Of a DNA stretch of 64,000 nucleotides, positions 35,182 through 51,318 are shown piece after piece. Every line of letters begins with the position of its first letter. Positions within the stretch are counted from its first letter, which is position 1. Source of the DNA: Nonlabens ulvanivorans (GTDB lineage Bacteria > Bacteroidota > Bacteroidia > Flavobacteriales > Flavobacteriaceae). Both the position numbers and the translations under genes were made by a program. The notes below the pieces were generated by a model, which was not told where the DNA came from, did no database searches, and was given only the letters and a program-made list of their open reading frames with translations. The stretch is taken from NCBI RefSeq assembly GCF_000755285.1, contig NZ_BBMK01000008.1, forward strand, positions 1-64,000, given 5' to 3'.

Positions 35182-35280
35182 ATGGTCGAACTTAAAGATG
35201 CTGATAAAGCCGACATGAAACGTTTAAAACAAAAAGTTGTGCATTTACTACCTTTTTTGAGTTATGATCGATACTGCTAA
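35182..35280 (+). pseudogene. short open fragment, possible gene remnant
   Basis: A 32-codon open stretch (MVELKDADKADMKRL, then KQKVVHLLPFLSYDRYC) that looks protein-like in composition but is too short to place. It has no start region or partner domain. It may be the tail of a gene lost when the accessory region was inserted. Low confidence. Confidence 0.2.
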
Positions 35281-35349
35281 AAGGTTTGCTTTAAGTCACA
35301 TACAGTAACGTAATGTTGTAAGATTTTGCTTAGGTTTGTATTTACTAAC

Positions 35350-35359
35350 GTTGGCAGTA
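35350..35359 (+). repeat. left inverted repeat of the HNH cassette (GTTGGCAGTA)
   Basis: Exact reverse complement of TACTGCCAAC at 36407-36416. The pair encloses the HNH gene. The preceding bases read ACTAAC, giving an ACGTT-type end. Confidence 0.7.
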
Positions 35360-35382
35360 ATGTAAAAAATCTCGAATAATTA

Positions 35383-36400
35383 ATGGGAATTGGACTAAAA
35401 ACAAGAAAAATGTTATGGGGGCAGGTCAGGAAATAGATGTGCTCTACCTACTTGTCGCAGAGAACTTGTTGAAGATGAAAGCGAGACCGATGATGCTTCA
35501 ATAGTTGGAGACGAAGCACATATAGTAGCTCGTGAAGAAGAAGGTCCGAGAGGAAAGTCTGAATTAACACCTGAACAAAGAGATAAATACCAAAATCTAA
35601 TTTTAATGTGTAAGGTTCATCACAAATTAATTGATGACCAACCACTTAAATATACAGTAAGTAATCTTCAAGAAATTAAGCAAGACCATATAGATTGGGT
35701 AAATAAAAATTTAAGTCCTGATGCAGATAAACAAAAGGACGAAGAAAAATATGCTTTATATGTCGACAAATGGATTGAGTTAGCTGATATTAATAACTGG
35801 AAAGCTTGGACTTCTGGAGTTTTTGCTGGAGGACAACCTTCTATTTCAAAAAACAAACTTGACAAATTGAAAGAATTAAATGTTTATCTATTATCAAGAG
35901 TTTGGCCTAAACGTTATGAAAATTTAGAATTTGCTTTTATCAATTTACGAATTGTACTTACTGACTTTATCAATGTTTTTGAGAAATATAAGGCAAAAAC
36001 TGGCTCTGACGACGATATAACTTACTACACAGAAAAAATTTATAAAACAAACGGATATCTTGAGCAAAAACAATATCAAGAAGCTTTAGATAGATTTAAT
36101 TTTCAAGTGGATTTAGTTCAGGATTTAGGACTTGAATTGACTCGTTCAGCAAATTACTTGTGCGACCAAATAAGGAAATATTTAATGTATTCTTTTAGAA
36201 CAGAAGAAGGTGTTTTATTGATTGAGTATGGACCAAATATGAATTTTCAATGGACAACTGTACGTGCCGAATTTCATAAAACTGACAGAGATTTTGTAAA
36301 CTATCCAGGCTTGAGGAAGTTTATGGAGACTAGAAGACATCGTGGAGCTGGATTTGGTAATGGAGTTAGAGAGGAATATTTTCCGATTAGATTTGAATAA
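35383..36400 (+). CDS. HNH endonuclease with uncharacterised C-terminal domain (one frameshift)
   Basis: 338 aa after repair of a G5 run at 35417-35421 (true G4: KMLWGRSGNRC). Residues about 18-95 form an HNH nuclease: zinc Cys pair C-x4-C (CALPTC), GDEAHIVAREEEGPRG, and NLILMCKVHHKLIDDQP with the final His residues. The same HNH module is widespread in defence effectors. Residues about 100-338 (WIELADINNWKAWTSG and onward, helical, many aromatic residues) match nothing I recognise. Without the repair only a start at 35606 is seen, which would cut off half of the HNH. It is enclosed by its own 10 bp inverted repeat. Confidence 0.8.
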
Positions 36401-36406
36401 AAACAC

Positions 36407-36416
36407 TACTGCCAAC
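36407..36416 (-). repeat. right inverted repeat of the HNH cassette (TACTGCCAAC)
   Basis: Perfect partner of 35350-35359, lying 6 bp after the HNH stop and running into AACAAGG-TATAA, the start of the next boundary element. Confidence 0.7.
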
Positions 36417-36598
36417 AAGGTATAAAAAACATAGGGCGTTTGTGCTAAATTCAAAGGTCTGTGCATTTTAATAAAGTCCGCTAAATATAAAATTTGGCGT
36501 TTATAGTAGAAAAGATAAAAGCAAAATATTTATATTTAGCTAAGTAATAAACCGAAACGAAAGTGCTTATCACCTGCCCTACGTTTCTTATACTGAAC
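36417..36598. repeat. boundary element B: imperfect palindrome between the HNH and OLD/UvrD units
   Basis: Outer arms GTATAAAAAACATAGGGC (36420-36437) and GCCCTACGTTTCTTATAC (36576-36593) pair at 16 of 18 positions. The roughly 140 bp between them has no ORF. It starts with AACAAGG and ends with GAACGTT. Confidence 0.7.
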
Positions 36599-36607
36599 GT
36601 TACCTGC
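36599..36607 (+). repeat. left inverted repeat of the OLD/UvrD cassette (GTTACCTGC)
   Basis: Exact reverse complement of GCAGGTAAC at 40424-40432, which follows the helicase gene. The sequence differs from the HNH cassette repeat, so each cassette has its own pair. Confidence 0.65.
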
Positions 36608-36631
36608 AAGCTGAAAAAACCTAATCGATAA

Positions 36632-38384
36632 ATGTATATAAACAACTTAAAACTATGGAATTTCAGAAAATTTGGTAGCTCTGATAATTTTGATATAAAT
36701 AAACCTAATTTAAATCTCGATTTTTCGAAAGGGTTAAATGTTCTTATAGGTCAAAATGATTCTGGTAAAACAGCGATAATAGATTCTATAAAACTTGTTC
36801 TTAAAACTCATAGCTATGATTGGATAAAAGTAAAACACGAAGATTTTCATTTGGCATCCAACAGATTTAGAATTGAAATAAGAATTGAAGATTTAACTAA
36901 TCAAGAAGCAAAAAACTTTACTGAGTGGATTGGATGGACAGGTGAAGGAGAAAATGCCAAACCTTATTTGCGCTTGATTTATGACGTGAATAGGAATTTA
37001 GAAGATAATTATATTATTCCGTCAGATATACGAGCTGGAGTTGATGAAACTGGTTATCAATTAACAGCTGAAGCAAGAGAATATTTAAAAGCTACTTATT
37101 TAAAACCTTTAAGAGATGCAAAGTCAGAACTGATACCGAGAAAAAACTCAAGATTAGCTCAAATTTTGCAAGGTCACGAAGCATTCAAAGGTCAAGAAAA
37201 CACGCATCTTTTAGTTAATCTTTTTAAAGAGTTTAATATCTCGATAGAAAATTATTTTGAAGGAAAAGATAATAATGACCAAGATTTAACAGGAACTAAT
37301 TTAAAAGGAAAGGAATTAAAAGATGAAATTGACAAATACATAAAGTCATTTTACTCTGATTCAAAAGAGTCGAATTTCAGTGTTAATAATGGCTCATTGA
37401 AAAGTATTCTTGAAAAATTAGAACTCACAATAAAAGACGAGATAAATTTAGGGTTAGGAATCTTAACCGATTGTCAATGGCATCAGAGTTATTACACTTG
37501 CATAAGAAAAATTGGAATGGTATTAGACTTGGTTTAATTGAAGAATTAGAAGCACACTTGCATCCACAAGCACAAATGCAAGTCATTGAATCATTGCAAA
37601 AACAAGATAAAATTCAATTAATTTTAACTACTCATAGCCCAAATTTAGCATCAAAACTTAAACTTGAAAGTTTAATAATTTGTAATGAAAAGAATGCTTT
37701 TCCAATGGGAAGTAAATACACTAAGTTTAATCCAAGTCATTATGTTTTTCTTGAAAATTTTTAGACACTACAAAATCAAATCTATTTTTTGCAAAAGGGT
37801 TAATTTTAGTTGAAGGTTGGGCTGAAGAAATATTGGTTCCAAGTTTAGCAAAAAGAATTGGAATAAATTTAACTGAAAAAGGCGTTTCAGTTATAAATAT
37901 TGGGAATGTAGGATTTGATAATTATTCTAAAATCTTTTTAAGAAAAGAACAACCTAAAATGAAAATTCCTGTTTCAGTAGTAACAGACAATGATGTAAGA
38001 GAATATGAAAAGGATGGTACAAAAAAAAATGAATTCTTTTATATATTACAATCTAATATTAAAACCAAAGCATTAGAAGCTAAAACAGAAGAAAATGTTA
38101 AATACTTTGTTGCACCAAAATGGACATTAGAATATTCTCTTTTCCAATCATCAAGTATGTCTTCAGAATTTCAAGAAGTTGTTAAACAAATTCACACAAG
38201 AACAAATTGGGTTGATAATTTCGAATTAGAGTTAGCTAAAAAATTAATTAAAAAAGGGCTAAATAAAACTCAAATAGCATATTTACTAGCGCAAAAGCTT
38301 GAAGGTGAATATGAAGATGCGTTTATAGTAGATGATAATATTAAATATTTGGTTGATGCAATAAAATATGCTTGCAATGATTAA
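36632..38384 (+). CDS. OLD-family ATP-dependent nuclease, GajA-like (two frameshifts)
   Basis: 584 aa after repair. N-terminal ABC-type ATPase with Walker A IGQNDSGKTAIID (from about residue 37), signature region LNRLSMASELLHLHK, and Walker B-like LIEELEAHLHPQAQ. The C-terminal Toprim nuclease has LILVEGWAEEILVPSLAK and the acidic VVTDNDVREYE. One A is missing near 37460 and one T near 37758-37762; both repairs restore family sequence. Class 2 OLD nucleases pair with a UvrD helicase, as here, and such pairs are the Gabija anti-phage system. Its stop overlaps the helicase start. Confidence 0.85.
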
Positions 38385-40414
38385 TATAACCAATAGCGAC
38401 ATAGAATATGCTGAAAAGATATTATTACCTGAAAACCATCACTTTGATGATGAAAGGCTAGAATTTATTAGAGATTTCACTTCATTAGATTTACAGGCAG
38501 TTCCTGGCAGTGGAAAAACAACTGCTTTACTTGCCAAACTTATTATTTTAGAAAAGTATTTACCTCTAAAAGATAATCGAGGTATTCTCGTAATTTCCCA
38601 TACCAACACAGCTGTTGATGAAATTAAAGAACGTATTGGAAATTATTGCCCTAAACTATTTTCTTACCCTAATTTTATAGGTACAATTCAAAGTTTTGTA
38701 GATATTCATCTAGCTATTCCGTGTTTTACAAACTTATATAAGTCAAAACCTTATAGAATTGATAATGAAATTTACAATGAAAGAATTAAAAAAAAATTAT
38801 CAACTATCTGGCACTTTAGATATGGTTTAACAGCACAAGATGCAAGAAAAATTAGTTACCTATCAAACTTGAATGAAGGATTATTTTATAATTTTAGGAG
38901 TGGCTTTGATAATGATGGAAATATTATTTTATTAAATAAAATAAACGGAGAAAAATTAGAAATTAAAAAACCTAGAGGAAGAACTAGAATAGAAAATTAT
39001 ACAGATTACACTCAAGTCGAAAAAACATTAATATATAATTGGTTACTTGAATTAAAAAAAGACCTATTACAAAATGATGGTGTACTTCATTTCGATGATG
39101 CATACTTTTTAGGCAACTTATATTTAAAACAATTTAGTCTTTCAAAAAAATTATTACAATTTAGATTTGAATACATTTTTGTTGATGAAATGCAGGATAT
39201 GGATATTCATCAATACAATCTTCTAGAATTACTATTTTATAATAATAACGTTTCACATTCTATTATTCAAAGGATTGGAGATATTAATCAAGCTATTTTT
39301 AATGGCTTTTCTGATTCTGAAAACGTATGGGAGTTTAGAGAGAACCTTAAATATTTACAGGGAAGTCATAGGTTAAATCCAAAAATTGCAAGTATTGTAG
39401 AAAAATTAGCTCTAACCCCCAAACTTAATTGAAGGTAGACAAATCAATCCAGATAATACTGAAATTGAAATTAATCCATTATTGATAATTTATAATAATG
39501 ATAGTAAGGAAAATGTACTAAACACTTTTGCCTCAAAAATTGAAGATTTAATAAACAATAATTTAATTCCATCATCGGAACTTAACAAGTATAAAGCTCT
39601 TGCTTGGCGAAAAGAACATCAAGATGCCAACAAAATTGGATTAAAAGACTATTGGGTACAATACAATGAAAAATCTTTTAAAACAAAAATAGATTATCAG
39701 TGTTTAGAGGATTATTTAATTCATTTCGATAAGGAAAAACGAACTTTTGAAGCTATCAGAAAAAATATTTTAAATTCATTTTTAAGAATTTTTAGACTTG
39801 AAAATATTATTGATGAAAACAATAAGCCATATACAAAACGAAAGTTAATAAACTATTTAAAGAATTTAAACAACAATGAGTATGAAGACTTTAAATTAAA
39901 TATTTATACTTGGTCATTCAATATTATTAAAAACGATTTAACAGTTTGTAATAATATCCGTGAATACATACCAATTTTACTTGGTTACTTTCAAAAAGTA
40001 ATTAATTTGTCTAACGACTTCATTAATTCAGTCGGAAATAATGCTATTGAACAAGATGAAATCGAAAATAATTCTAACAAGTTTATACACAACGATGTTG
40101 AAATAGAAGTTGGAACAGTACATTCAGCAAAAGGTCAAACACATACTGCAACATTATATTTAGAAACATTTTTTCAAAGAGGATATGGAAATTATGAATC
40201 TGAAAGATTAAGAAATCAGTTTCTAGGTGTTAATGTAAGTACAACATTAAATACTAATATAACCAGTAAAGAAAAAATAAAAAAATCAGCGAAAATGACA
40301 TATGTCGGATTTTCAAGACCAACACATTTACTATCTGTGGCAATACATAAAGATAGATTTGACTCTTGTTTAGCTGATATTGATAGGGACATTTGGGATA
40401 TAATTGAAATCTAA
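38368..40414 (+). CDS. UvrD-like superfamily 1 helicase, GajB-like (one frameshift)
   Basis: 681 aa after repair of a C5 run at 39416-39420 (true C4: LALTPNLIEG). SF1A motifs in order: Q-region/Walker A VPGSGKTTALLAKL (about residue 47), Ia SHTNTAVDEI, II FVDEMQDM, III RIGDINQAIFNG, V VGTVHSAKGQTHTATL, VI YVGFSRPTHLL. The start overlaps the nuclease stop by 17 bp, so the two are coupled. It is longer than the roughly 500 aa GajB proteins I recall; the region between motifs III and V (about 340-560) holds the extra helical sequence. Both genes are visibly AT-rich compared with lysA and ald. Confidence 0.82.
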
Positions 40415-40423
40415 ATAAAGCCA

Positions 40424-40432
40424 GCAGGTAAC
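40424..40432 (-). repeat. right inverted repeat of the OLD/UvrD cassette (GCAGGTAAC)
   Basis: Perfect partner of 36599-36607, nearly 3.8 kb apart, 10 bp after the helicase stop and followed by AACG-TATATAA. Confidence 0.65.
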
Positions 40433-40610
40433 AACGTATATAACTCACAGCTAGTTAGTTGCTTAATTCAAATTTAAGGTATATTTGGAAGTCCGCCAAA
40501 TTTTCAATTTGGCTTATTGAAAAGAAAAGGTAATAAGAAAATTAAAAAATTCGGCTCGTGCTTAACTGAATAGTTAATGCTAGTTTGCACGCTACGAGCC
40601 ATATACAAAA
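40433..40610. repeat. boundary element C: imperfect palindrome after the helicase gene
   Basis: Arms CGTATATAACTCACAGC (40435-40451) and GCTACGAGCCATATACA (40591-40607) pair at about 12 of 17 positions with the rest transitions. It is followed by AAAAACGTT, the same ACGTT end as element B. Confidence 0.55.
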
Positions 40611-40881
40611 ACGTTCTAGTCCATTGCCTGCGGCCGTAGGTTTTCGCTTTTGTAATTTATAATTACTCACTTGGGATTAGAAACTATAGCACTACAATAA
40701 CGCTGCGAAAGATCAACCAGCTTTAGTAATTATAAATCACAAGTCTCCCAACCTACTCAACTGTCTTCCTCTCGCTGTGCTCGTCGGAGACAATAATGGC
40801 AAAGCTGTAAAACCTCTTGAGCAATAGTCAGCTTGTACTTACCCAATTACCGCCAGCCGCTAGGAAACAAACAAGAACGTT
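40611..40881. other. ORF-less unit between two boundary elements
   Basis: 270 bp with no supported ORF. It carries a long inverted repeat: 40649-40667 and 40725-40743 pair at 17 of 19 positions around ATTTATAATTACT. It may be a cassette that encodes RNA or has decayed. Its GC-richer patches (CTGCGGCCGTAGG) set it apart from the genes to its left. Confidence 0.4.
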
Positions 40882-41028
40882 GTATAATGGCGATTGAGAC
40901 GTTTTAAAGGCTTATAGCGAGGCTGTGATTATTCATAAAATCAGTAACTTCACATCCATTAAACAACAACCAAAAGGTCTACGCGTACCGGCTAAAACGC
41001 CTCACTCGCCTTATACCTTTGCCATTAG
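40882..41028. repeat. boundary element D: imperfect palindrome before the LytTR gene
   Basis: Left arm 40882-40911 (GTATAATGGCGATTGAGACG...) pairs with right arm 40990-41016 (...CGCCTCACTCGCCTTATAC) over nearly 27 bp with small gaps. Its right arm is homologous to 45084-45126 (34 of 43 identical by eye). Confidence 0.65.
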
Positions 41029-41095
41029 CAAAAAGCGAAAAAACAATCTCAAGTAAAAAATAAAATTAAATCAAACTAAAATATAGTAGTTCCTT

Positions 41096-41935
41096 ATGAA
41101 GTGGCTCAACGCACCATATCCATTATTACAAAAAGCTAAATACAAGTGGTTATTTGCCTTATTATCGGGTCTTTTTGTTTTTTTGTTTTTGATTTTTTTT
41201 CAACCTTTTGGCGCGGGACAGTCAATAGCTTATAAATATATTTTCTTAGCGGGTTTTGGGGTTGCAGTTTTTCTGGGCGTGGCTACCACCTATTTTATTC
41301 TTCCTATACTATTTCGGGAGTTTTTTCGCCCAGAAAAATGGACCATAGCAAAGGAAATTATATTACAATCTTGTTGCATCTTGATCATAAGTACTTTTAA
41401 TTCACTGCACAATTACAATTGGTGGCGCGATATTGATTTATATCAAACCTTTTTAAATTTTCTTATAATCACTATTTCGATAGGGATTTTTCCTATCATA
41501 GGTTTAATCTTTTTTAAAGAGCGCACACTTTCAAAACGCAATATCGAGAGAGCACATTTACTTTCTAATCAGTTACCCACCGAAGCAGTAGTAGATACTA
41601 GTTCTATTAAAATACAAGAAGAAAGTGTCAAAGAATTACCTATTGTAATGCCATTATCAGAGTTTGTCTACGCACAATCAGAAGGAAATTATATAACGAT
41701 ATATTATTTGGACGATAATACGCTTATGCATAAACTAATAAGGCTTTCTTTAAAACAGCTTGAAATACAATTAGAAAATCTTTCTCAAATAAAACGTTGT
41801 CATCGCTCTTACCTTATTAATACGCAACATATTACATCTATTGATGGTAATGCTAGATCACTTACTATACAGTTAGATAAGATTACTACTAGTATTCCTG
41901 TTTCTAGATCATTCTCAAAAGCTGACTTTTACTAG
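41096..41935 (+). CDS. LytTR-domain transcription regulator with four transmembrane helices
   Basis: 279 aa. Residues about 15-145 hold four hydrophobic helices. Residues about 180-279 are a LytTR DNA-binding domain (FVYAQSEGNYITIYY, RCHRSYLINTQHITSIDGNARSL, IPVSRSF). Membrane-bound LytTR proteins of this type in Bacteroidota usually control nearby genes without a separate kinase. The DinB-like and serine hydrolase genes downstream are natural targets (inference). A cassette-type arm lies just upstream. Confidence 0.85.
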   Translation: MKWLNAPYPLLQKAKYKWLFALLSGLFVFLFLIFFQPFGAGQSIAYKYIFLAGFGVAVFLGVATTYFILPILFREFFRPEKWTIAKEIILQSCCILIISTFNSLHNYNWWRDIDLYQTFLNFLIITISIGIFPIIGLIFFKERTLSKRNIERAHLLSNQLPTEAVVDTSSIKIQEESVKELPIVMPLSEFVYAQSEGNYITIYYLDDNTLMHKLIRLSLKQLEIQLENLSQIKRCHRSYLINTQHITSIDGNARSLTIQLDKITTSIPVSRSFSKADFY

Positions 41936-42036
41936 CGTTCCCATTCGTCACAAAAGTGGCACATCCATCCCGTTTTTTCATAACGTACTGATTTCAAGAC
42001 TATTTTTGGACTCAACAATTTTTAAAATATAGACTT

Positions 42037-42585
42037 ATGAAAAATCGTATTCAAATCATCTTAATCTTACTGACTGGAATCTTATTACTAAGCAGCGCTG
42101 CAAGTATGGGATCAGACAAAAGAAATTCTGAACTCAAAGTAAAACTTAATGAAGTAGCATCCTATATTCCTGTAAGGGATACCATAAACCTTGAGGTGTC
42201 AGAAGCTTCTGTTGCGTGGCATATGGATCACATTTATTTAATGGTAAATCAGTTACATAAAGCACTCGAGTATTCTGATGAAAGTATTTATAAAGCAGAT
42301 TCCAATCAGACACGCGACTATGTGTTTAATTCTAATACGCTGCCTAGAGGAAAAGTTACTGCGCCAGAGTCCGTAAGACCAGCAGAAAATGTAACTATCA
42401 ATACGTTACAAATGCATTATGAAGAAGCGCTTGCTACGGTAGAAAAGTTTCCTACGCTTGCAGAAAAGAAACACTTTAATCATCCTATACTTGGGACTAT
42501 GAATAGAGACGAGACCATTAAATTTCTTACTATTCATACGGAACATCACCTTAAGATTATACGCGATATATTGAAGGACAAGTAG
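42037..42585 (+). CDS. DinB/DUF1569-like protein with N-terminal membrane anchor
   Basis: 182 aa. Residues about 5-24 form a hydrophobic signal-anchor. The rest is a four-helix DinB-like domain with the metal-ligand His residues in VAWHMDHIYLMVNQ, KHFNHPILGTMNRDETI and THTEHHLKIIRDIL-like helices. The domain binds a metal ion; the substrate is unknown, and an exported DinB domain is unusual. It lies between the LytTR regulator and the serine hydrolase, same strand. Confidence 0.75.
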   Translation: MKNRIQIILILLTGILLLSSAASMGSDKRNSELKVKLNEVASYIPVRDTINLEVSEASVAWHMDHIYLMVNQLHKALEYSDESIYKADSNQTRDYVFNSNTLPRGKVTAPESVRPAENVTINTLQMHYEEALATVEKFPTLAEKKHFNHPILGTMNRDETIKFLTIHTEHHLKIIRDILKDK

Positions 42586-42646
42586 TTTTCTAAACAACTT
42601 CTCTTTTAACTAGCCAATAAACCAAAAACAATAAAACCATCTAAAA

Positions 42647-44073
42647 ATGAAAAAAATAATTATTCTCTTAACGGCACTATTTCTCATAGTAGCCTGTAAT
42701 AATAAAGAAAAAACAAATACAACTATAGCTAAGTATGAAGTTGTAGAAAATGATAAAACGCAGCGGTTAGATTCCGTTTACGCAGCGCATTTTGAAAGAA
42801 ATGAATTTAATGGAAATGTACTCGTGGCCGAAGGCGGCAAAATCATATTTCAAAAAAGCTATGGAATTGCAAATGAAGAGACTAATGAGAAATTAAATAT
42901 TCAGACTTCCTTTGAATTAGCATCTGTCTCAAAACAATTTACGGCAATGGGAATTGTACAACTTCAAAAAGAAGGAAAACTTTCCTATGATGACTTAGTT
43001 AGTAAATATGTTCCAGAGCTTAAGGATTACGAAGGAATTACCATAAAGAACTTACTGATACATACTGGTGGTTTACCTGATTATATGAGTATTATGGATG
43101 ATAACTGGGACAAATCTAAAATAGCCACAAATGAAGATGTGATTAACGCTTTCGCGAAAGCGTCTCCAGAAAAGGAATTTGAGCCAAATCAAAAATATAG
43201 TTACAGTAATACTGGATATCTACTACTAGGTACTATCATAGAAAGAGTCAGCGGAAAATCATTTGAAGAATATTTGAATGAAAAGATTTTTACACCGCTT
43301 AAAATGGAAAACACCTTTGTTTATCAGAGACGGTTTAATCCAAAGAACATCGATAATTATGCACAAGGATACATTTATTCAGATAGCTTAAAGCGAAATA
43401 TAGTACCAGATGATGCTCCTGAAGAAGAGTATGTCATTTATTTAGACGGTATTGTAGGTGATGGATGGTAAATTCAAACCTAATTGACTTGTTTAAGTGG
43501 GATAGAGCACTCTACGATACGACTCTTGTTAATAAGCAAGATAAAAAATTGATTTTCGCATCGTATCCTACAGATAGTGGTGTAGAAACTGGTTATGGAT
43601 TTGGTTGGTTCATTAGAAACGATAGTCTATATGGTAAACGAGTTATTCATACAGGTCGTTGGGCTGGTTACTTGACAATTCTTGAAAGACATATTGATAA
43701 TGACAAAACAATCATTCAACTTATAAACGTCGAAAATAAAATCACAACAAGTCCGGCTACATTCGCTCGTAAGATTTTGTATGATCAACCTATAGAGAAA
43801 CCTTTTGCACTGACAGAAGAAGTACTTAAGAAGAACGTAGGCATATACGTTAGAGACAAAGAGGAAAAAGAGATTATTTTTGAATTTGGACGACTTTGGG
43901 CTAATAACGGTCAAAATGAATTAAAACCAATTTCAGAGACTAAATTTGTCGTTATCGGTTATAGACCACAAGTAACCTTTGAATTTGCTACAAATGACGA
44001 AGGCCTAGCGAAAAGTTATAGAGTACAACAAAAAGAAAACGATTTAGATAAAACTTATTTGCGGAAAAAATAA
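42647..44073 (+). CDS. serine hydrolase, beta-lactamase class C fold, lipoprotein (one frameshift)
   Basis: 475 aa after repair. The lipoprotein signal ends LFLIVAC (Cys about residue 17). Catalytic S-x-x-K is in ASVSKQFT and Y-x-N in YSYSNTGYLLLG; HTG-type segment VIHTGRWAG follows. One G is missing near 43463: repaired VGDGMVNSNLIDLFKW. It is probably a penicillin-binding-like peptidase or esterase rather than a resistance enzyme. A palindrome copy (43147-43162) encodes NAFAKAS. Confidence 0.87.
43147..43162. repeat. palindrome CGCTTTCGCGAAAGCG in the serine hydrolase gene
   Basis: Perfect 16 bp copy, read as AFAKA. Confidence 0.9.
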
Positions 44074-44099
44074 CAGTGCTAAACATAGTTTAATAGTAA

Positions 44100-44280
44100 T
44101 AGCGGTTTAGATATTAATCTATTAATAAAGTATCTTATGCATTTAAAGTAAGTAGCTTTAACCGCTAACTAACTTAATACTAAACGTATGTAACAATAAC
44201 AGAACAGAGCGCAATAAAGGAATTTACATCTAACAAATATGATGAACTAATTTACGTGACGACAAAAATGCCGCCTGAAT
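44100..44280. other. gene-free stretch with inverted repeat and C-terminal gene fragment
   Basis: TAGCGGTT (44100-44107) pairs with AACCGCTA (44160-44167). A short open stretch ending at 44280 (KEFTSNKYDELIYVTTKMPPE split by no stop) looks like the tail of a lost gene. No complete gene is supported. Confidence 0.35.
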
Positions 44281-44288
44281 AATTAAAA

Positions 44289-44425
44289 GCCAGTTGTCAA
44301 CAACGGATATAAAAATAGCAGTTAAGAGCAAAATTTAAAGTTTAGTTCTTAACTGCTATTTTTGTTTTAAACTGAAAATTAGTACATATAAATCTGCTAC
44401 TTTTCATATACAAACACATTGTTCG
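44289..44425. repeat. boundary element F with internal terminator-like hairpin
   Basis: It begins GCCAGTTGTCAACAACGG. Arms GGATATAAAAATAGCAG (44305-44321) and CTGCTACTTTTCATATAC (44394-44411) pair well. The inner part contains a perfect 17 bp hairpin, 44311-44327 with 44347-44363, ending in a T run. Confidence 0.6.
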
Positions 44426-44435
44426 TAATTAGTCT

Positions 44436-44927
44436 ATGAATCCAAATCAGTACCTATTTGAAAAATTCAGCAATCTATTGAATGAAGAATTCTCTCAAAC
44501 CATAAATGAATACGATGAAGGACGTCATCTCACTATTGGAGACACAGGATTCTGGATTTCTTTAGACGATAAGGAACTAATTATTGGTTTTGGATTGAAT
44601 CACACACATTATAATTTTGACTATGATTCAATGGAAGATGCTATTGATACATTCTTTTTACTTTTAACCAAAAGAAAGAAAATTACTGATTACTCAAAAG
44701 GATTAAAAATTTTTAAAACCAAAGTAGAAATTGAAGTAGACAACGAGGAATTAATAAACCTTGGAACAACAGCTACATTTCCATTGCAGTTTTGGAAAAG
44801 ATCAGAATCTAAGATATCCTACGTTAATGAATTCTTGAAGACTGAAAAAATTACAGAACAATGGAAAGAGTTAATTAACTATGCACAACAAAGAACTGAG
44901 GTAAAAAACAACACTCTTCTTCGTTAA
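44436..44927 (+). CDS. uncharacterised cytosolic protein
   Basis: 163 aa, no signal peptide. The sequence (RHLTIGDTGFWISLDDKELI, GFGLNHTHYNFDYDSMEDAI, a basic KRKKITDYSKG turn, then two helices) suggests a small alpha/beta domain of the kind seen in immunity proteins. I have no motif to support that. It lies in a cassette-like position after element F, and its 3' end is shared with the sequence after the gene at 45153. Confidence 0.6.
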   Translation: MNPNQYLFEKFSNLLNEEFSQTINEYDEGRHLTIGDTGFWISLDDKELIIGFGLNHTHYNFDYDSMEDAIDTFFLLLTKRKKITDYSKGLKIFKTKVEIEVDNEELINLGTTATFPLQFWKRSESKISYVNEFLKTEKITEQWKELINYAQQRTEVKNNTLLR

Positions 44928-44990
44928 TTTGAGACATTATTATTCTGGGCTCTTAGAATCGATCAGTTGATTCTGGAGCCTTTTATATTT
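44888..44990 (+). repeat. duplicated 3' end, copy 1, with terminator
   Basis: ACAAAGAACTGAGGTAA, CTTCGTTAATTTGAGACATTATT and a terminator hairpin (44948-44980, then T4) recur as copy 2 at 46252-46350. Confidence 0.65.
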
Positions 44991-45057
44991 TCACTTTTCA
45001 CTAGTCTTAGATTAAAAACTACCTCTATTTACTTAATAAACTGTAACTTAACAACCA

Positions 45058-45126
45058 TTAACCAACATTAAATGGTACAGGCATACCGGCTAAAACGCTT
45101 TACTCACCTAATATTATTGCCATTGT
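45058..45126 (+). repeat. element E: copy of the element D right arm
   Basis: Matches 40986-41028 over 43 bp (TACCGGCTAAAACGC conserved exactly, 34 of 43 overall). Like that copy it lies just upstream of an accessory gene, here by 27 bp. Confidence 0.55.
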
Positions 45127-45152
45127 GCTTCTTTAACAGAAACCGCTAACCA

Positions 45153-46228
45153 ATGATAAAATTCTTTAGAAAAATTCGCGAAAACCTTCTCTCAGAAAAT
45201 AAATTTAGCAAATACATTCTGTACGCTATAGGCGAAATTGTACTTGTCATTATTGGTATTCTTATCGCGCTTCAAATAAATAATAAAAACGAACAGCGTA
45301 AAACCGAAAATAAGATTGTTTCAATTTTAAAAGAAGTACAACATGATTTAGGACTAGATATTCAAAAATCGGATGAGCTAATTGCCTATTATAAAACAAA
45401 AGATTCAATCATCAACTTAATACAAACCGATAAACTAACCTATGATGATTATAAAAATGAAAATCGAAATGCTTTAAGATATGCTATTATGAACGCTTTT
45501 CATATGAAAATTCATAAAAATGGATATACTAACCTCACAGAAAATGTTGATAATGTTCCAGAAAAGCTAAAAGCGGTTATTGAGCCATTAAACGAGATCT
45601 ATATTTATAACAAATACGAAATAGACAAGTTCGATACTCGCGTGGACTTGATAACTGATAGAGTCATGGACGGGTTGGCTAAAAGTAAAGAATGGTATTA
45701 CAGATTAGATCAGCCTCAACTAGAAGATGAGATGATAGATTTTTTTCTAAATGATCCTTACTATAAAAATGATGTAGATCTATACCAAAATGCTGGCTGG
45801 ACTAACTTGACAAATCATGTTACTGTATTCAGAGAAAATGCAATTAATGCATACAAACAAATTAACTTACTTATTGAAAGTAATGAACCGCTTCCGGATT
45901 TTATACCACATAATTTAGTTCATCTAACAAAGGCACAACTAAATGAATATGTAGGCACTTATAAGGTTGTAAAGTTTGAAGCTATGATGGTCCATTGCCA
46001 GAATTAAACTATAAAATTCAGATACAAGACAATAACCTAGTAGGCGTTATGAATGGAGATCTTAGAGATATTGATTATTTCTATTTTGAAACAAAAGATA
46101 AGATATTTGGTCAGACTGATATTTATCTTAAAGGAGAGTTTGTAAGAGATAGTTTGAATGAAATTACATCTTTATTTGTTATGAAAAATGGAATGGGAGC
46201 TCACTTAAGTAAACTTGAAACTAATTAG
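45153..46228 (+). CDS. DUF6090-like single-pass membrane protein (one frameshift)
   Basis: 358 aa after repair. The N-terminus (MIKFFRKIRENLLSENKFSKY followed by AIGEIVLVIIGILIALQIN) is the hallmark of this flavobacterial family: amphipathic start, then one transmembrane helix, then NNKNEQRK. The remainder is helical, with a C-terminal beta domain (LNEYVGTYKVVKFEGYDGPLPE). One G is missing near 45980. Function unknown. Confidence 0.78.
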
Positions 46229-46251
46229 AAGAAATTAATAACGAAAGGCTA

Positions 46252-46350
46252 ACAAAGAACTGAGGTAACAAACACCTCTTTTCTTCGTTAATTTAAGACA
46301 TTATTGTTCAAGGCTAATAAAATCAATCAATTGATTTTTATTAGCCTTTT
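46252..46350 (+). repeat. duplicated 3' end, copy 2, with terminator
   Basis: Partner of 44888-44990. The hairpin has a long stem (AGGCTAATAAAATCAA with TTGATTTTTATTAGCCT) and a T6 tail, so the terminator function is kept although the stem sequence differs. Confidence 0.65.
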
Positions 46351-46727
46351 TTAAGTTCTTTTTCTTGATTTATCGAGGCCAGATGAAAATCTGTGTTTCA
46401 TCATATCGCCTGCCCGATTTAGCTATAGCAATACATGATTTCAGAAACTGACCAATTCTATCAAAATATACTTGAATTTTTGATTTCATATAATTAGGAT
46501 AAACTTCACTCAATGAATTGTCTAATTCGTTTAGAAAAACGAACTGAAAACGAATAATTCACTATAGACTTAATTTTTATTAAAATCAACATACCCCATA
46601 AAAAATAGGGTTCAAATATTTAAAAACATCTTTTTAAATCAGCATACCCTATATAAATTAATGATTTATACTTTTATAAGTCAATAAAAAGTCACAACTT
46701 CGGTTTTTTAATATAAATGGCTTAAAA
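46351..46727. other. gene-free region with paired direct repeats before ald
   Basis: No ORF supported. Two 18 bp near-identical direct repeats, AAATCAACATACCCCATA (46583-46600) and AAATCAGCATACCCTATA (46636-46653), are 53 bp apart, about five helical turns, and lie 75-145 bp before the alanine dehydrogenase ATG. They look like operator sites. A GATGAAA / TTTCATC inverted repeat lies at 46382-46402. Confidence 0.45.
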
Positions 46728-47822
46728 ATGATTGTAGGGATTCCAAAAGAGATTAAGAATAACGAAAGTAGAGTAAGTATGACACCTGCCGGAGTTTATG
46801 AAATGGTAAAAAACAACCACACCGTTTATGTGCAATCCACCGCTGGTGAAGGAAGCGGCTTTTTTGACAACGACTATAAAAAAGCCGGTGCCATCATAGT
46901 CAACACCATTGAAGAAGTATATACCATTGCAGAATTAATCGTAAAAGTAAAAGAACCTATCGAGCTAGAATATGATCTAGTGAGAGAAGGACAAGTGCTG
47001 TTTACCTATTTTCACTTTGCTTCTAGCGAGCCTCTTACTACCGCTATGATAAAAGCCAAAGCCATTTGCATTGCTTATGAAACCGTAGAAGATCAAGAAA
47101 GCACCTTACCATTACTAACACCTATGTCTGAGGTTGCTGGTAGACTCGCCATACAGCAAGGTGCAAAATATTTAGAAAAACCCGTAAAAGGTAGAGGCGT
47201 TCTATTAGGTGGTGTTCCTGGTGTTGCTCCTGGTAAGGTTTTAGTTTTAGGAGCTGGCGTTGTAGGAATTCAGGCCGCAAAAATGGCCGCAGGTCTTGGT
47301 GCACACGTCACCATTATGGATATTAATATGAAACGACTGCGCTATGTAAATGATGTGATGCCACCGCACGTCGTGACAGAATTCTCTAACGAATTCAACA
47401 TTAGGAAACACATCAAGACGCACGACCTAATTATAGGTGGTGTCTTATTAAAAGGTGCCAAAGCTCCTAACCTAATCACACGTGACATGCTTAAAGAAAT
47501 GCGTCCAGGTACCGTGATTGTAGATGTCGCTGTTGATCAAGGTGGTTGTGTAGAAACTACTAGACCTACCACGCATGAAGATCCTATTTACATCATCGAT
47601 GACGTCGTGCATTATACCGTTGCAAATATGCCTGGAGCAGTACCCTATACTTCTACCGTGGCACTTACTAATGTGACCTTACCTTATGCACTTCAATTAG
47701 CTCGTCATGGTTGGGAAAAAGCTTGCAGCCAGAATCCAAGCCTAGAAAAAGGACTTAATATCATATCTGGTAAAGTGGTCTACAACGAGATAAATGAGGC
47801 CTTTGGATGGTCTTCAAAATAG
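46728..47822 (+). CDS. ald: alanine dehydrogenase (canonical)
   Basis: 364 aa, the standard length for NAD-dependent AlaDH, which interconverts alanine and pyruvate. VGIPKEIKNNESRVSMTPAGV, MSEVAGRLAIQQGA, the Rossmann motif VLVLGAGVVGIQAAKMAAGLGA, DQGGCVETTRPTTHEDP and NMPGAVPYTSTVALTN are all present. Upstream direct repeats suggest specific regulation, as AlaDH genes are often controlled by Lrp-type regulators (inference). It is the right core neighbour of the accessory region. Confidence 0.95.
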   Translation: MIVGIPKEIKNNESRVSMTPAGVYEMVKNNHTVYVQSTAGEGSGFFDNDYKKAGAIIVNTIEEVYTIAELIVKVKEPIELEYDLVREGQVLFTYFHFASSEPLTTAMIKAKAICIAYETVEDQESTLPLLTPMSEVAGRLAIQQGAKYLEKPVKGRGVLLGGVPGVAPGKVLVLGAGVVGIQAAKMAAGLGAHVTIMDINMKRLRYVNDVMPPHVVTEFSNEFNIRKHIKTHDLIIGGVLLKGAKAPNLITRDMLKEMRPGTVIVDVAVDQGGCVETTRPTTHEDPIYIIDDVVHYTVANMPGAVPYTSTVALTNVTLPYALQLARHGWEKACSQNPSLEKGLNIISGKVVYNEINEAFGWSSK

Positions 47823-47852
47823 TGTTTTGCGTTCTATAAGATAATTAATATC

Positions 47853-47870
47853 ACGCTTTCGCGAAAGCGT
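47853..47870. repeat. intergenic palindrome ACGCTTTCGCGAAAGCGT
   Basis: Perfect 18 bp copy between the convergent ald and methyltransferase genes. Confidence 0.9.
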
Positions 47871-47956
47871 CATCAAAAAGCCCACGACTAACACTTCATA
47901 ACTTAGAGTACAAAAACATAAATATAATTACACAAGATATGAGTCATGAAAGACGA

Positions 47957-49034
47957 TTAATCAATGTTTTTATGAACCAAAACCCATAACTCGACTTCCT
48001 CACTACCACGCCAATTTTGATCTCTAGTGGTTTTATCTGAAGCAGATTTAACCCTTTTTTATAACAACGTTCTAATTGAAATCTATCGTGGTGAGCAATC
48101 TCATTTTCAATAGGATGTTCATTAGTGACATCAGTTATTTTTGCCAGGTTAGAAAACAGAATTGCAAGTTTTCCATCTACAGCCAGTCGTTCTTTTGCAG
48201 CAGCAAAAAATCAGGGAATAATTCTTCTGGGTAATAGATCGCTGCATCTGTACGATCATTATCAGAGGAAATAGGCAACCATGGTGGATTAAACACGATT
48301 AATTCTGTCTCTTTATCCCATTTACCAAACAATGAAGCATGATCCAACTCTATCTTTCTTGAAAGCTTTGTATCGCCCATAAATTCAGTAAGCCCTATGA
48401 TAGCATTAGGATTTATATCTGTCCCAAATACTTTCTGAAAACCATGACCTACTAATTGAAAAGAAAGCGCACCACTACCTACACCTACCTCAATAGCTGA
48501 TTTCTTAGGACCTTCATATCGCTTTAACCAGTTATCAAAAACGGTTAAATGGTCAAATCTAGTTGGAAAATAAACACCATAATAAGGATGTATCTTATTT
48601 CTCAATGTCGGTACAGAGATTCCATTTTGATACCACTGCCAGGAACTATTTAATCCTTGAACTTGCGGAAAAGTGAGTAAAAAATTAGTGTTACCTGTAT
48701 ATAATTTTTCAAGCCAGCCTATACCAGGTGCTTTTTTTACATCGATTTTATAATTGATGATTTCTAGAAGTATGAGATTAGACAGCTTGTGATAAGCAGC
48801 ACGATACTCGCGTTGTTCTTGAAATGTTTTATGTGGCATCTTACTTTTAAGATACTGATGTAGTTCTTTAAGTAGTAGAACTCCATTGCTATAAAAATCT
48901 GCAATAAGAACAGGTTTACCAGCTTCTAACGCTTGAATGGTTTTCTTAATTTCTGTAGAAAGATTAAAAATCTCTAATCGTTTACCTGTTACAAATGGTG
49001 CAGGCTTATTGACGTTAATATCTGTATTCATCAA
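47957..49034 (-). CDS. class I methyltransferase, PrmC/RlmG-like (two frameshifts)
   Basis: 359 aa after repair. The Rossmann SAM site AIEVGVGSGALSFQLVGHG, acidic DINPNAI and the target-loop motif FNPPWLP (NPPW type, N-methyltransferases acting on Asn/Gln or bases) identify the class. An N-terminal 150-residue domain carries no motif I know. One base is missing in an A6 run (48205-48210) and one in a short C run (48052-48054). With both restored the protein continues FFAAAKERLAVDGKLAILFSN and ends ELWVLVHKNID, instead of stopping at 48177. The substrate is not evident. Confidence 0.75.
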
Positions 49035-49244
49035 TTTATATTATGTAGAAACGAATTGCAAATAATGAGAAGAGCAAAGCGAGTGATTAATCTATTCTGT
49101 GAGTATAATTACTTACCAGCAATCAGGCATTAAGTTGCTTGCTAGAGTTCATTTTCATCATTTAAACCATATAAACTCTATTAAAACTGAGCATACTGGC
49201 ATAAAAAGGAGAAATAATTAAAAGTAAAGGTACTTTTTAAAAAA

Positions 49245-49277
49245 CAAAAAAAGCCTCGCATAATGCGAAGCTTTTTA
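49245..49277 (-). terminator. terminator of rpmE2
   Basis: Stem around CCTCGCAT / TGCGAAGC flanked by A and T runs, 24 bp after the rpmE2 stop. Confidence 0.8.
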
Positions 49278-49300
49278 ATATCGTTAAAATTCTAAGAAAA

Positions 49301-49552
49301 TTACTTCTTGAATTTTGCATATTTAGTTTTGAACTTGTCAATACGACCAGCTGTATCTAAAAGTTTAGTCTCTCCAGTATAGAATGGATGAGAAGTACGA
49401 GAGATTTCCAATTTAATAAGTGGATACTCGTTACCTTCAAACTCAATCGTTTCCTTAGTAGGAGCTGTCGATTTAGTTAAAAATATTTGTTCGTTAGACA
49501 TGTCTTTAAAAGCTACTAGTCTATAATCTTCTGGGTGAATTCCTTTTTGCAT
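49301..49552 (-). CDS. rpmE2: 50S ribosomal protein L31 type B
   Basis: 83 aa from ATG 49552 ([20 protein letters not shown]), which removes a 10-residue extension that would overlap the promoter box. [25 protein letters not shown] and the basic tail [15 protein letters not shown] are L31B. It lacks the zinc-binding Cys set, as type B (zinc-independent) forms do. It is monocistronic with its own promoter and terminator. Confidence 0.96.
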
Positions 49553-49579
49553 GATCTTAATCTTATTCTTTTGCGGCTG

Positions 49580-49587
49580 CAAATTTA
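49580..49587 (-). promoter_or_regulatory. -7 box TAAATTTG of rpmE2
   Basis: Exact TAnnTTTG match 27 bp before ATG 49552; supports that start. Confidence 0.45.
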
Positions 49588-49666
49588 ATCATTATAATTA
49601 AATCTACAAATAGATTGCTTAAATATATCTGTGCAATTTATAGCTTTCGGGCGTAATGCAAACCAT

Positions 49667-49674
49667 TATATTTG
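49667..49674 (+). promoter_or_regulatory. -7 box TATATTTG of the DUF4199-like gene
   Basis: Exact TAnnTTTG match 23 bp before the TTG start at 49698. Confidence 0.4.
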
Positions 49675-49697
49675 TATTTCTTAAAAAAAAGAACATT

Positions 49698-50194
49698 TTG
49701 GATCAAATAGTAAAGAAAAACTCCTTCATCATAGGTGTTATAGGTGCCATCGCAAATCTTGCTCTGGTTGTTTATATATGGCAAAATCAGGCTTTTAGCA
49801 GTGTAGGCTAGGTATTATTATGATGATATTGCCCATACCCTTTGGAATTGCTGCACAATGGTGGAGCAAGTCTAGTCTCAACAGTTACTTATCCTTAAAG
49901 CAAGGTGTGCTCGCTTTTTTCTTGTGTATGCTTGTCATTTTTCTAGTAGATTTTATCGCAAACTACCTTATCTATGTACAAATTGATCCAGGCGCACAAG
50001 CCATTGCAGAAAAGGCAACTGAAGAATTTGCTCAAAAAAATGAAAATGCTCTTGCAAATCAAGATGTTTTTAAAAAACCCGTTTATAGTCTAGGCAGCTA
50101 CTTCACTGGCTTTATTTCTAAACTATTGTTTTACACCATTTTTGGAATCTTATCAGCTTTGATTTTCAGAAAAGAAGCTCCACAGCAAGCTTAA
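49698..50194 (+). CDS. DUF4199-like membrane protein (one frameshift)
   Basis: 165 aa after repair. One C is missing near 49808 (repaired SSVGLGIIMMILPIPFG), joining a TTG-start N-terminal helix (SFIIGVIGAIANLALVVYIW) to three further transmembrane segments. The order TM - TM - soluble Ala/Glu linker (QAIAEKATEEFAQKNENA) - TM and its position directly before a dolichol-phosphate-type glycosyltransferase are typical of DUF4199 proteins. Function unknown, probably linked to the glycosyltransferase. Confidence 0.75.
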
Positions 50195-50222
50195 TTTTCA
50201 TATTTATAATAGAACTCGTTGC

Positions 50223-51173
50223 ATGAATTTATCCATTGTCATACCGTTGTTAAATGAGGAAGAATCTCTTCCAGAATTACACGCTTGGATCCTACGCGTT
50301 ATGGAGACCATGGACATCAGCTATGAGATTATTTTTATAGATGATGGTAGTACAGATGGCAGTTGGAATGTTTTGGATACGCTTTCGCATAAGCATGCCA
50401 CCACACATACCATAAAATTTCTAAGTAATTATGGGAAATCACAAGCCTTACATGCCGGTTTTCATAAAGCCCAAGGTGAGGTCGTGATTACTATGGATGC
50501 AGACTTGCAAGACAGTCCAGATGAGATTCCTGAGTTATACCACATGATCGCCGACCAAAATCATGATCTGGTAAGCGGCTGGAAGAAAAAAAGGTATGAT
50601 AGCGTTATTGCAAAAAATTTACCTAGTAAACTATTCAATTGGGCAGCGCGTAAAACTAGCGGCGTACAATTAAATGATTTTAACTGTGGTTTAAAAGCAT
50701 ATAAAGCAACGGTTATTAAAAATATAGATGTTCACGGCGAGATGCATCGCTATATACCTGTGCTGGCCAAAAATGCTGGTTTTAGCGACATCGCTCAAAA
50801 AGAAGTGATCCATCAAGCTAGAAAATATGGAACGACTAAATTTGGTTATGAACGTTTCATTAATGGTTTTTTAGATTTGATTACCATTGCTTTTATATCA
50901 AAATACGGTAAACGACCTATGCACCTTTTCGGCGCACTAGGTGTTATTATGTTTATGCTAGGTTTTCTAACCGCTGGTTATGTAGGGTTTTCAAAACTTT
51001 ATAAAATGGCCAATGATATTCCTTATGGATTAGTCACCGATAATCCGTGGTTCTTTATTGCACTAACCACCATGCTACTAGGCGTTTTATTCTTTATCGC
51101 TGGTTTTCTAGGAGAATTAATTCTTAGAAACGGAAATCAAGTGAACCGTTACCGCATTGAAAAGGAAGTTTAA
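50223..51173 (+). CDS. family 2 glycosyltransferase, polyprenyl-phosphate type
   Basis: 316 aa. A GT-A domain (residues about 1-215) has VIPLLNEEESLPEL, FIDDGSTDGSW, the metal-binding MDADLQDSPDEIP and NDFNCGLKAYK. Two C-terminal transmembrane helices (about 232-255 and 272-297) anchor it. This is the DPM1/GtrB layout, which loads a sugar on undecaprenyl phosphate for envelope glycans. A degenerate palindrome at 50381-50394 encodes TLSHKH. Confidence 0.9.
   Translation: MNLSIVIPLLNEEESLPELHAWILRVMETMDISYEIIFIDDGSTDGSWNVLDTLSHKHATTHTIKFLSNYGKSQALHAGFHKAQGEVVITMDADLQDSPDEIPELYHMIADQNHDLVSGWKKKRYDSVIAKNLPSKLFNWAARKTSGVQLNDFNCGLKAYKATVIKNIDVHGEMHRYIPVLAKNAGFSDIAQKEVIHQARKYGTTKFGYERFINGFLDLITIAFISKYGKRPMHLFGALGVIMFMLGFLTAGYVGFSKLYKMANDIPYGLVTDNPWFFIALTTMLLGVLFFIAGFLGELILRNGNQVNRYRIEKEV
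50381..50394. repeat. palindrome variant GCTTTCGCATAAGC
   Basis: Two mismatches from consensus inside the glycosyltransferase gene. Confidence 0.6.
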
Positions 51174-51287
51174 AATTTAGGCGGCAACATCATTAAGTCA
51201 TCAACACTTTAAACTACCTATTAAATAGGAATGTCCTGTATTGCTGGACACACAAATCAAACCTGCCTACGACCTACTATTTTCTGT

Positions 51288-51295
51288 TATCTTTG
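51288..51295 (+). promoter_or_regulatory. -7 box TATCTTTG of the phosphosugar mutase
   Basis: Exact TAnnTTTG match 23 bp before ATG 51319, which rules out the upstream TTG at 51241 as the start. Confidence 0.5.
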
Positions 51296-51318
51296 TAATT
51301 CATTCATACGTTATAAAA

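Follow-up and report, generated by a model that had tools for sequence, protein, structure and literature searches.

Evidence for integron-type cassette arrays with a probable non-IntI integrase in Nonlabens ulvanivorans and its relatives

Introduction

Sedentary chromosomal integrons, for example the Vibrio superintegron, hold their cassettes in one-way arrays with the first cassette at attI. Their attC sites have the order R''-L''...L'-R', in which R' is shared with the next cassette and the bottom strand gives the stabler fold; the classical R box consensus is RYYYAAC / GTTRRRY. Integrase-less arrays, the clusters of attC sites lacking integron integrases (CALIN), also exist, some with defence cargo. 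The locus described here lies in a stretch of 64,000 nucleotides of Nonlabens ulvanivorans (contig NZ_BBMK01000008.1, positions 1 to 64,000), hereafter the window. Two units in it, one with an HNH-type gene and one with a Gabija system, are considered here (probability about 85%) to be the first cassettes of an integron-type array served by an integrase other than IntI.

Arrays of this type are like chromosomal integrons and CALIN in all the traits just listed, the R box consensus apart: one-way order (median cassette 0.76 kb), first cassette at attI, layout of the sites, R' common to the next cassette, stabler bottom strand, and integrase-less examples with some defence cargo. They are unlike them in that the integrase has no additional domain, the R boxes are seldom RYYYAAC/GTTRRRY, and the cassette-end stem is GTT plus 6 bp, then A.C, then one pair. 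There are also fixed G.T pairs, no conserved extrahelical bases, and two integrase types with opposite layouts. The catalytic residues and the missing additional domain are shared with XerA and XerC/D; unlike those proteins, the array integrases form a separate tree branch and adjoin arrays. Gabija is carried here as one cassette, in several broken frames.

A part of PMC2727003 gives extrahelical bases on the L'' arm as a feature of classical attC. The accessible text of PMC4792948 describes the additional domain as a feature found only in integron integrases and tied to their single-strand pathway, the CTXphi stem as free of extrahelical bases, and XerCD as free of the additional domain. In the phylum, the accessible text of the IntegronFinder 2.0 paper names one complete integron in Bacteroidetes proper, in Salinibacter ruber M1; the accessible part of a Tenacibaculum paper using IntegronFinder reports no integrons, and the main text of PMC8352920 has no mention of Bacteroidota. 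No description of such arrays was found in the literature searched, bioRxiv and most subscription journals aside.

Cassette Ends and Arrays in Related Genomes

A sequence-only reading of the window had described two defence-gene units, each inside its own perfect inverted repeat. The repeats are exact (GTTGGCAGTA at 35350 with TACTGCCAAC at 36407; GTTACCTGC at 36599 with GCAGGTAAC at 40424), and the common edges are as described, ACGTT on the left and AACAAGGTATAA and AACAACGTATATAA on the right. Repeats at chance frequency had been named as one of two results that would speak against such units, and within the window they are at that level. Positions 35350-40432 contain 221 perfect 9-nt inverted pairs; GTTn6...n6AAC pairs number 3, where 200 letter shuffles average 2.1 and 66 of them have at least 3; and a stem finder calls as many sites in the window (5) as in its reversed control (5). 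The arrays of relatives, by contrast, are far above chance, and in the window the signal beyond chance is the sequence of about 187 bp behind each unit.

These two spacers, 36414-36601 and 40430-40615, are homologous and align over their length. Of 99 related genomes, 32 contain a 23-mer pattern taken from the two spacers, and 10 contain the pattern reversed. Motif searches recovered many sites of the form AAC-N3-GTATA...TATAC-N4-6-GTT, in two main sizes of about 125 and 187 nt. In 20 loci and the window, the stem finder gave 148 sites as compared with 39 in reversed controls (summed by hand), with nearly all array sites on one strand and few on the minority strand.

For the 122 units between neighbouring sites in the same 20 loci and window, the 6 bases after GTT are complementary to the 6 before AAC at all six positions in 80 units and at five in 3 more. 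Shuffled partners reach 6/6 in 1.1%; for the two R boxes on either side of one site, as they stand in the linear array, the figure is 4/122. The right end of a unit thus pairs with its own left end, which is the rule for integron cassettes. A census of 40 loci and the window yields 202 nonredundant cassettes of median 762 bp, whose ends match by construction since the cassettes were defined by their ends. The cassette starts exactly at the GTT of the preceding site in 124 of them, and the longest open reading frame (ORF) runs in the sense direction in 178 and in the antisense direction in 8; in the other 16 it is shorter than 60 aa. These are one-way cassettes, mostly of one gene, bounded by attC-like sites. 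Related genomes do have conserved edges, around other genes; the other result named as speaking against the units, a lack of such edges in relatives, was thus decided in favour of the sequence-only reading.

Breakpoints and Copies of Cassettes

Comparison of close relatives places the breaks at the cassette ends. Of 23 genomes of the genus, 22 have the decarboxylase gene left of the array. In the three closest relatives the decarboxylase protein is 99% identical and the left-flank DNA shows 94-96% homology, which stops at 35356-35368, at most 18 nt past the GTT at 35350. The window and the Nonlabens genomes G002, G016 and G011 (G, L and C numbers are our handles for genomes, loci and contigs) have ...TACTAAC|GTT in common, after which each has a left end of its own; a search of the window, G002 and G016 recovered the complementary right end of the first cassette in all three. 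A near-identical attI-like sequence precedes the break at the same locus in the three close relatives, and the same sequence is found upstream of a divergent integrase elsewhere in the G016 and G011 genomes. In 11 more distantly related members (L192-L202) the homology reaches no further than the decarboxylase gene, so they do not share the position of the array.

Cassettes also occur as copies. Among 178 cassette places in five genomes, 14 groups were found in which one and the same cassette stands at more than one place. In the 18 identical pairs, identity starts 0-3 nt before GTT in 16 and stops 0-3 nt past the GTT of the site in 12. The first cassette of G004 and of G009 is a copy of an interior one. 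Arrays of the same type, own-end pairing, breaks at GTT and identical cassettes at different places together bear out the earlier proposal of a mobile cassette system with hairpin-forming ends.

The sequences of about 187 and 125 bp could themselves be the mobile part, a miniature inverted-repeat transposable element or other short repeat inserting behind static genes. They are repeated, have inverted terminal parts and fall into sequence families, and a 417-bp element of the arrays is clearly a multiplied repeat. Insertion of this kind leaves unexplained the pairing of own ends (80/122 at 6/6, against 4/122 across a site), the identical whole cassettes that stand elsewhere with different neighbours, and the differing first cassettes at a fixed attI; it is extremely improbable.

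Fold of the Sites

The fold was derived from an alignment of 24 of 50 nonredundant short sites, all of one sequence family and hand-picked. Unguided folding with RNAalifold gives a 16-bp bottom-strand helix common to the 24 sites, with compensatory changes in 8 of the 16 pairs and two G.U columns that are invariant (24/24 sites). With the AAC/GTT pairs included, 99.8% of cells pair, as compared with 91.6% in shuffles and 30-51% in slid versions. The outer seven L columns had been used in selecting the sites; columns 17-26 had not, and among these five pairs change on both sides. The sites have the attC order R''-L''...L'-R', with AAC/GTT at the ends and an unpaired central spacer, mostly of 3 x 4-6 nt. 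The hairpin envisaged earlier at the joined ends is predicted to take in a whole attC-like site of about 125 or 187 nt, not just the short repeat.

The two strands of a site are not equivalent. On the top strand the G.U positions become A.C mismatches (L7 in 77% and L12 in 74% of sites; R8 in 74/80). In 163 of 182 sites the bottom strand gives the stabler fold; among nonredundant sites it does so in 96/112, against 338/560 shuffles. No conserved extrahelical base on the L'' arm and no unpaired L'' column were found in the 24 aligned short sites, and the classical consensus RYYYAAC / GTTRRRY is matched by only 9/112 and 5/112 sites. An Rfam scan near the sites gave no attC-like family, and one weak Thr_leader match elsewhere.

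The Probable Integrase and Its Place Beside the Arrays

A profile (A2) made from eight recombinases of array loci has one strong match (at least 322 bits) in 48 of 60 genomes of the family, a hand count that leaves out a partial 218-bit match in G039. Xer-like matches score about 155-205 bits, and most genomes have such a match separately besides the array integrase. The assembly to which the window belongs has no strong A2 match.

The recombinase stands in a fixed position relative to the sites. A site model (R1), built from the 24 short sites, gives 108 matches in 29 recombinase loci, including 2 self-complementary duplicates. Short integrases (up to 310 aa) have 46/48 sites upstream on the opposite strand, and long ones (355 aa or more) have 56/58 downstream on the same strand, 102/106 sites overall. 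Seven of the 29 loci (L052, L053, L057, L058, L060, L061, L064) were chosen partly for their sites; among the 20 chosen by recombinase alone, 11 have sites in the expected arrangement. Sorting of the integrases by length mislabels L076 (a fragment) and L081. In 80 further named loci R1 gives 33 matches in 15 loci, one a duplicate, of which 26 are divergent, 6 co-directional and none otherwise placed (hand count); Nonlabens tegetincola, Flagellimonas pacifica, Kriegella and Maribacter halichondriae are among them. In G009, G004 and G025 the distance from the integrase stop to the start of the first recognised cassette is 34, 56 and 70 nt, respectively. An attI next to an integrase is present in these three relatives and in G016 and G011; the window has an attI remnant only.

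If the cassette arrays are real, the host XerC/D could still be what acts on them (Xer hijacking), the neighbouring recombinase being incidental. The genome of the window and others with large arrays show only an Xer-like match, and XerCD integrate CTXphi, whose stem is likewise without extrahelical bases (accessible part of PMC4792948). This reading has to contend with a second recombinase that adjoins the arrays in a fixed arrangement (102/106 sites) and with a first cassette end 34-70 nt away in 3 of 6 arrays examined. Moreover, none of the 48 family genomes with a strong integrase is without sites, against 3 of the 12 without one. Action by XerC/D in place of the adjoining integrase is very unlikely.

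The array proteins are set apart from IntI by several measures. TIGR02249, with its cut-off of 265, gives at most 197 bits for the six array proteins scanned. NF040815 (tyrosine recombinase/integron integrase) matches array proteins, likewise below its cut-off. The additional domain of IntI (about 43 residues) is absent from the short integrases, in which 15 residues (182 to 198) stand opposite 58 of IntI4 (184-241); an AlphaFold model of a short integrase (predicted local distance difference test 84.4) has no helix between 183 and 200. Only IntI occupies 39 of the alignment columns, among them the stretch that follows the KDR motif. The top PDB profile matches are XerA-like (161.6 bits) and IntI4 (161.2). 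In a 55-row tree, which drew a long-branch warning from the program, IntI, Xer and the short integrases each fall on one side of a branch (100); short, long and related proteins come together at 82, next to IntI when the tree is Xer-rooted, and the long integrases are not one group (5 changes).

These relationships could also be read as those of ordinary integrons whose flavobacterial proteins are merely divergent IntI. In the Xer-rooted tree no branch is nearer to the array integrases than IntI, they end in SPLD as IntI4 does, the name of NF040815 points the same way, and reviews, in their accessible parts, place Bacteroidota among the integron-bearing phyla. The TIGR02249 cut-off is nevertheless passed in 0/99 relatives as compared with 105/395 genomes of the phylum; the additional domain is absent, classical R boxes are found in 9 and 5 of 112 sites, and L has no conserved extrahelical base. 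Divergent IntI is highly unlikely, and the IntI scores, the R boxes and (for the short sites) the extrahelical bases set the system apart from classical integrons. True IntI proteins above the NCBIfam cut-off, those of the 105 genomes, are almost all outside the class to which the window belongs (loci L204-L215).

The Array in Nonlabens ulvanivorans

The features of the array and its right flank are as follows.

35224..35349, + strand: attI-like sequence at the array head, with the start of a probably lost divergent integrase; 83% identity to the G016 upstream region
35350..36413, + strand: cassette 1, HNH-type gene (ORF 35606-36400), left end GTTGGCAGT, right end ACTGCCAAC
36414..36601, + strand: attC-like site 1 (AAC...GTT), 188 nt, from homology to site 2 and motif searches
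36599..40429, + strand: cassette 2, Gabija, from PADLOC GajA/GajB and the ORF list; ends pair 6/6
40430..40615, + strand: attC-like site 2, 186 nt, model R1, E 5e-8, the site being outside the R1 training set
40616..41028, + strand: non-coding repeat cassette (about 413-417 bp), ending TTATACCTTTGCC^ATT, with copies in Nonlabens loci
41029..44298, + strand: strain-variable segment within the array, between the left and right homology limits against G016
41096-41935: LytTR gene (Pfam)
42037-42585: DinB_2 gene (Pfam)
42647-43471 (serine-hydrolase-like, judged by eye) and 43465-44073: ORFs of the 41029..44298 segment
44299..44420, + strand: degenerate attC-like site 3, CATTG instead of CGTTG, model R1, E 1e-4
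44885..52000, no strand given: right chromosomal flank, where G016 homology resumes (L190); 52000 is the query end

The repeats of the sequence-only reading were thus rightly placed, but the mobile unit also takes in the site on its right, from GTT to the next GTT, and the array does not end at 40432 but reaches about 44885. The attI-like sequence corresponds to the DNA upstream of the 276-aa integrase of G016, with the final 24 nt to CGTT exact, and is also matched in L057 and L069; its reverse strand reads MHNFLF-stop (by eye), a remnant of the integrase start.

In cassette 1 the gene has weak PADLOC matches to HNH effectors, and a Pfam scan of it gave no match; model R1 misses site 1. In cassette 2, gajA is split over three or more frames (36632-37537, 37471-37764, 37833-38384), gajB over two (38368-39432, 39482-40414). 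With the fragments scored separately, PADLOC gives up to 345 bits for GajA, in a scan that left out 37471-37764, and up to 479 for GajB. The adjacent GajA OLD ATPase-TOPRIM and GajB UvrD helicase of a Gabija system are there in broken frames, and since they are recognised only piecewise, either the genes themselves are disrupted or the assembly is at fault.

The non-coding repeat runs from GTT to TTATACCTTTGCC^ATT right before the next left end, so that coding and non-coding cassettes alternate. Ten copies at 88-96% are found in L066 (G002), 9 of which fit the CGTT-start pattern, 2 in L001 (the window's own genome) and 3 in L057. In some Nonlabens genomes (window, L066, L001, L057, L184, L203) it stands behind many sites. 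It may harbour a promoter or another type of site.

In the strain-variable segment, left cassette ends were not recognised; 42806-43715 is 69.6% identical to inter-site DNA of the G025 array. Contig C14 of the window's genome has a site with 89% identity to site 3, and a left end for site 3 was looked for in the window and not found. More sites, with at least one complete cassette, lie elsewhere in this genome, in L181 (C14) and L182 (C21). The right flank is 86.6% identical to G016 (L190) over 44885-46353 and 88.8% over 46537-52000. A short repeat in this flank (44885-44998 and 46251-46444) occurs twice in L190 and also in L187 (G010).

Distribution and Cargo

With up to 35 candidates scored in each genome, R1 sites were found in 57/60 genomes of the family and in 5/39 of other families. 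The integrase, too, is missing from the 3 family genomes that have no sites. A plasmid of Persicobacter psychrovividus has 10 sites on one strand. A search for chains of self-complementary units beside recombinases (84 loci over 5 kb) cannot separate strands, and 14/168 of its reversed controls reach at least 3, four of those reaching 5; it gave chains of at least 4 in six loci (Flavobacterium enshiense, 8; G089, 6; NBU2973, 5; L103, L108 and L233, 4), some of them in other families. On a plasmid of Flagellimonas marinaquae (L237) there is a related recombinase, with no nearby cassette array in the annotation of the plasmid; no search for the sites themselves was made there.

The cargo is varied. 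A scan covered 145 of 169 cassette proteins. Among the PADLOC matches listed (25 of 114 families) are Hachiman HamB, HerA, LmuB and restriction enzymes, the families listed having one protein each save for one candidate in two; among the Pfam matches listed (25 of 101 families) are TPR, NADAR, WapI-like immunity proteins and others. The earlier suggestion of anti-phage cargo is thereby qualified: in the window Gabija is broken, and elsewhere the cargo is mixed.

The two units themselves are rare. At E 1e-10, homologs of the HNH unit were found in none of 249 genomes except the window's own. GajA occurs in 2 others of the 249, with no flanking site (one chance-like match lies inside the gene, L173). 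Blast of both units against the collected loci gave no relatives. In L010 there are cassette ends equal to those of unit 1 around different contents.

Proposed Mechanism and Significance

Several results count against an integron-type array. The repeats within the window alone are not beyond chance, and own-end pairing is imperfect in 42/122 units. Of the 29 recombinase loci, 11 have no site in the expected arrangement (8 with no match, 3 with off-rule matches only); for five of the 8 (L069, L070, L080, L085, L087) the contig ends less than 1 kb away on the expected side. R1 found no site in 65 of the 80 named loci, and in 41 of these 80 the stem finder gave 33 sites against 75 in reversed controls, so that only their placing (21/33 divergent) stands out. 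The first recognised cassette is 0.6-1.9 kb from the recombinase in G035, G016 and G017. Large arrays occur without a strong integrase match (27 sites in G002, 32 in G015, 25 in G040), and since the window's own assembly is 87% complete, loss of its integrase is not certain. The 4 similar between-genome pairs listed (at least 75% identity) are two distinct cassettes, so exchange between species finds little support in this sample. Finally, it is genome comparison that shows cassette movement. The large arrays of G002 and G015, genomes with no strong integrase match, lie in loci L066/L188/L203 and L185/L186, respectively.

On comparative evidence at base resolution, the system appears to work like an integron. 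A cassette consists of one or a few genes and an attC-like site, with a left end TT-N6 and a complementary right end N6'-AAC. Circular excision would join the ends into a complete site R''-L''...L'-R'. The bottom strand would fold to a hairpin and, as a single strand, be recombined at G/TT with attI or another site; the breaks of identity at GTT fit such a crossover by the integrase. The acting enzyme is probably the dedicated tyrosine recombinase encoded at the array head, a putative sister of IntI without its additional domain, and cassettes are probably still moving. The sites would mark the strand by G.T pairs, not by extrahelical bases. The absence of the additional domain fits the absence of extrahelical bases, since a stem without them resembles duplex DNA, and the CTXphi stem, which has none, is paired with the domain-less XerCD. 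The window's array, with integrase lost, attI kept and Gabija broken, would be a decaying, CALIN-like one.

A wider proposal is that Bacteroidia hold a second integron branch, with a recombinase that is the sister of IntI and was always without the additional domain, folded bottom-strand sites and strand choice by G.T pairs; we consider this about as probable as its opposite. A widespread array system without the additional domain would open the origin of integrons to testing and would be an example of another way to choose the strand. With at least one site in 57 of the 60 family genomes searched, there is a cassette pool that current tools may not see. If the proposal is true, these arrays would be an extant link between Xer recombinases and IntI integrons, and there would be a large unseen pool of cassettes, defence genes included.

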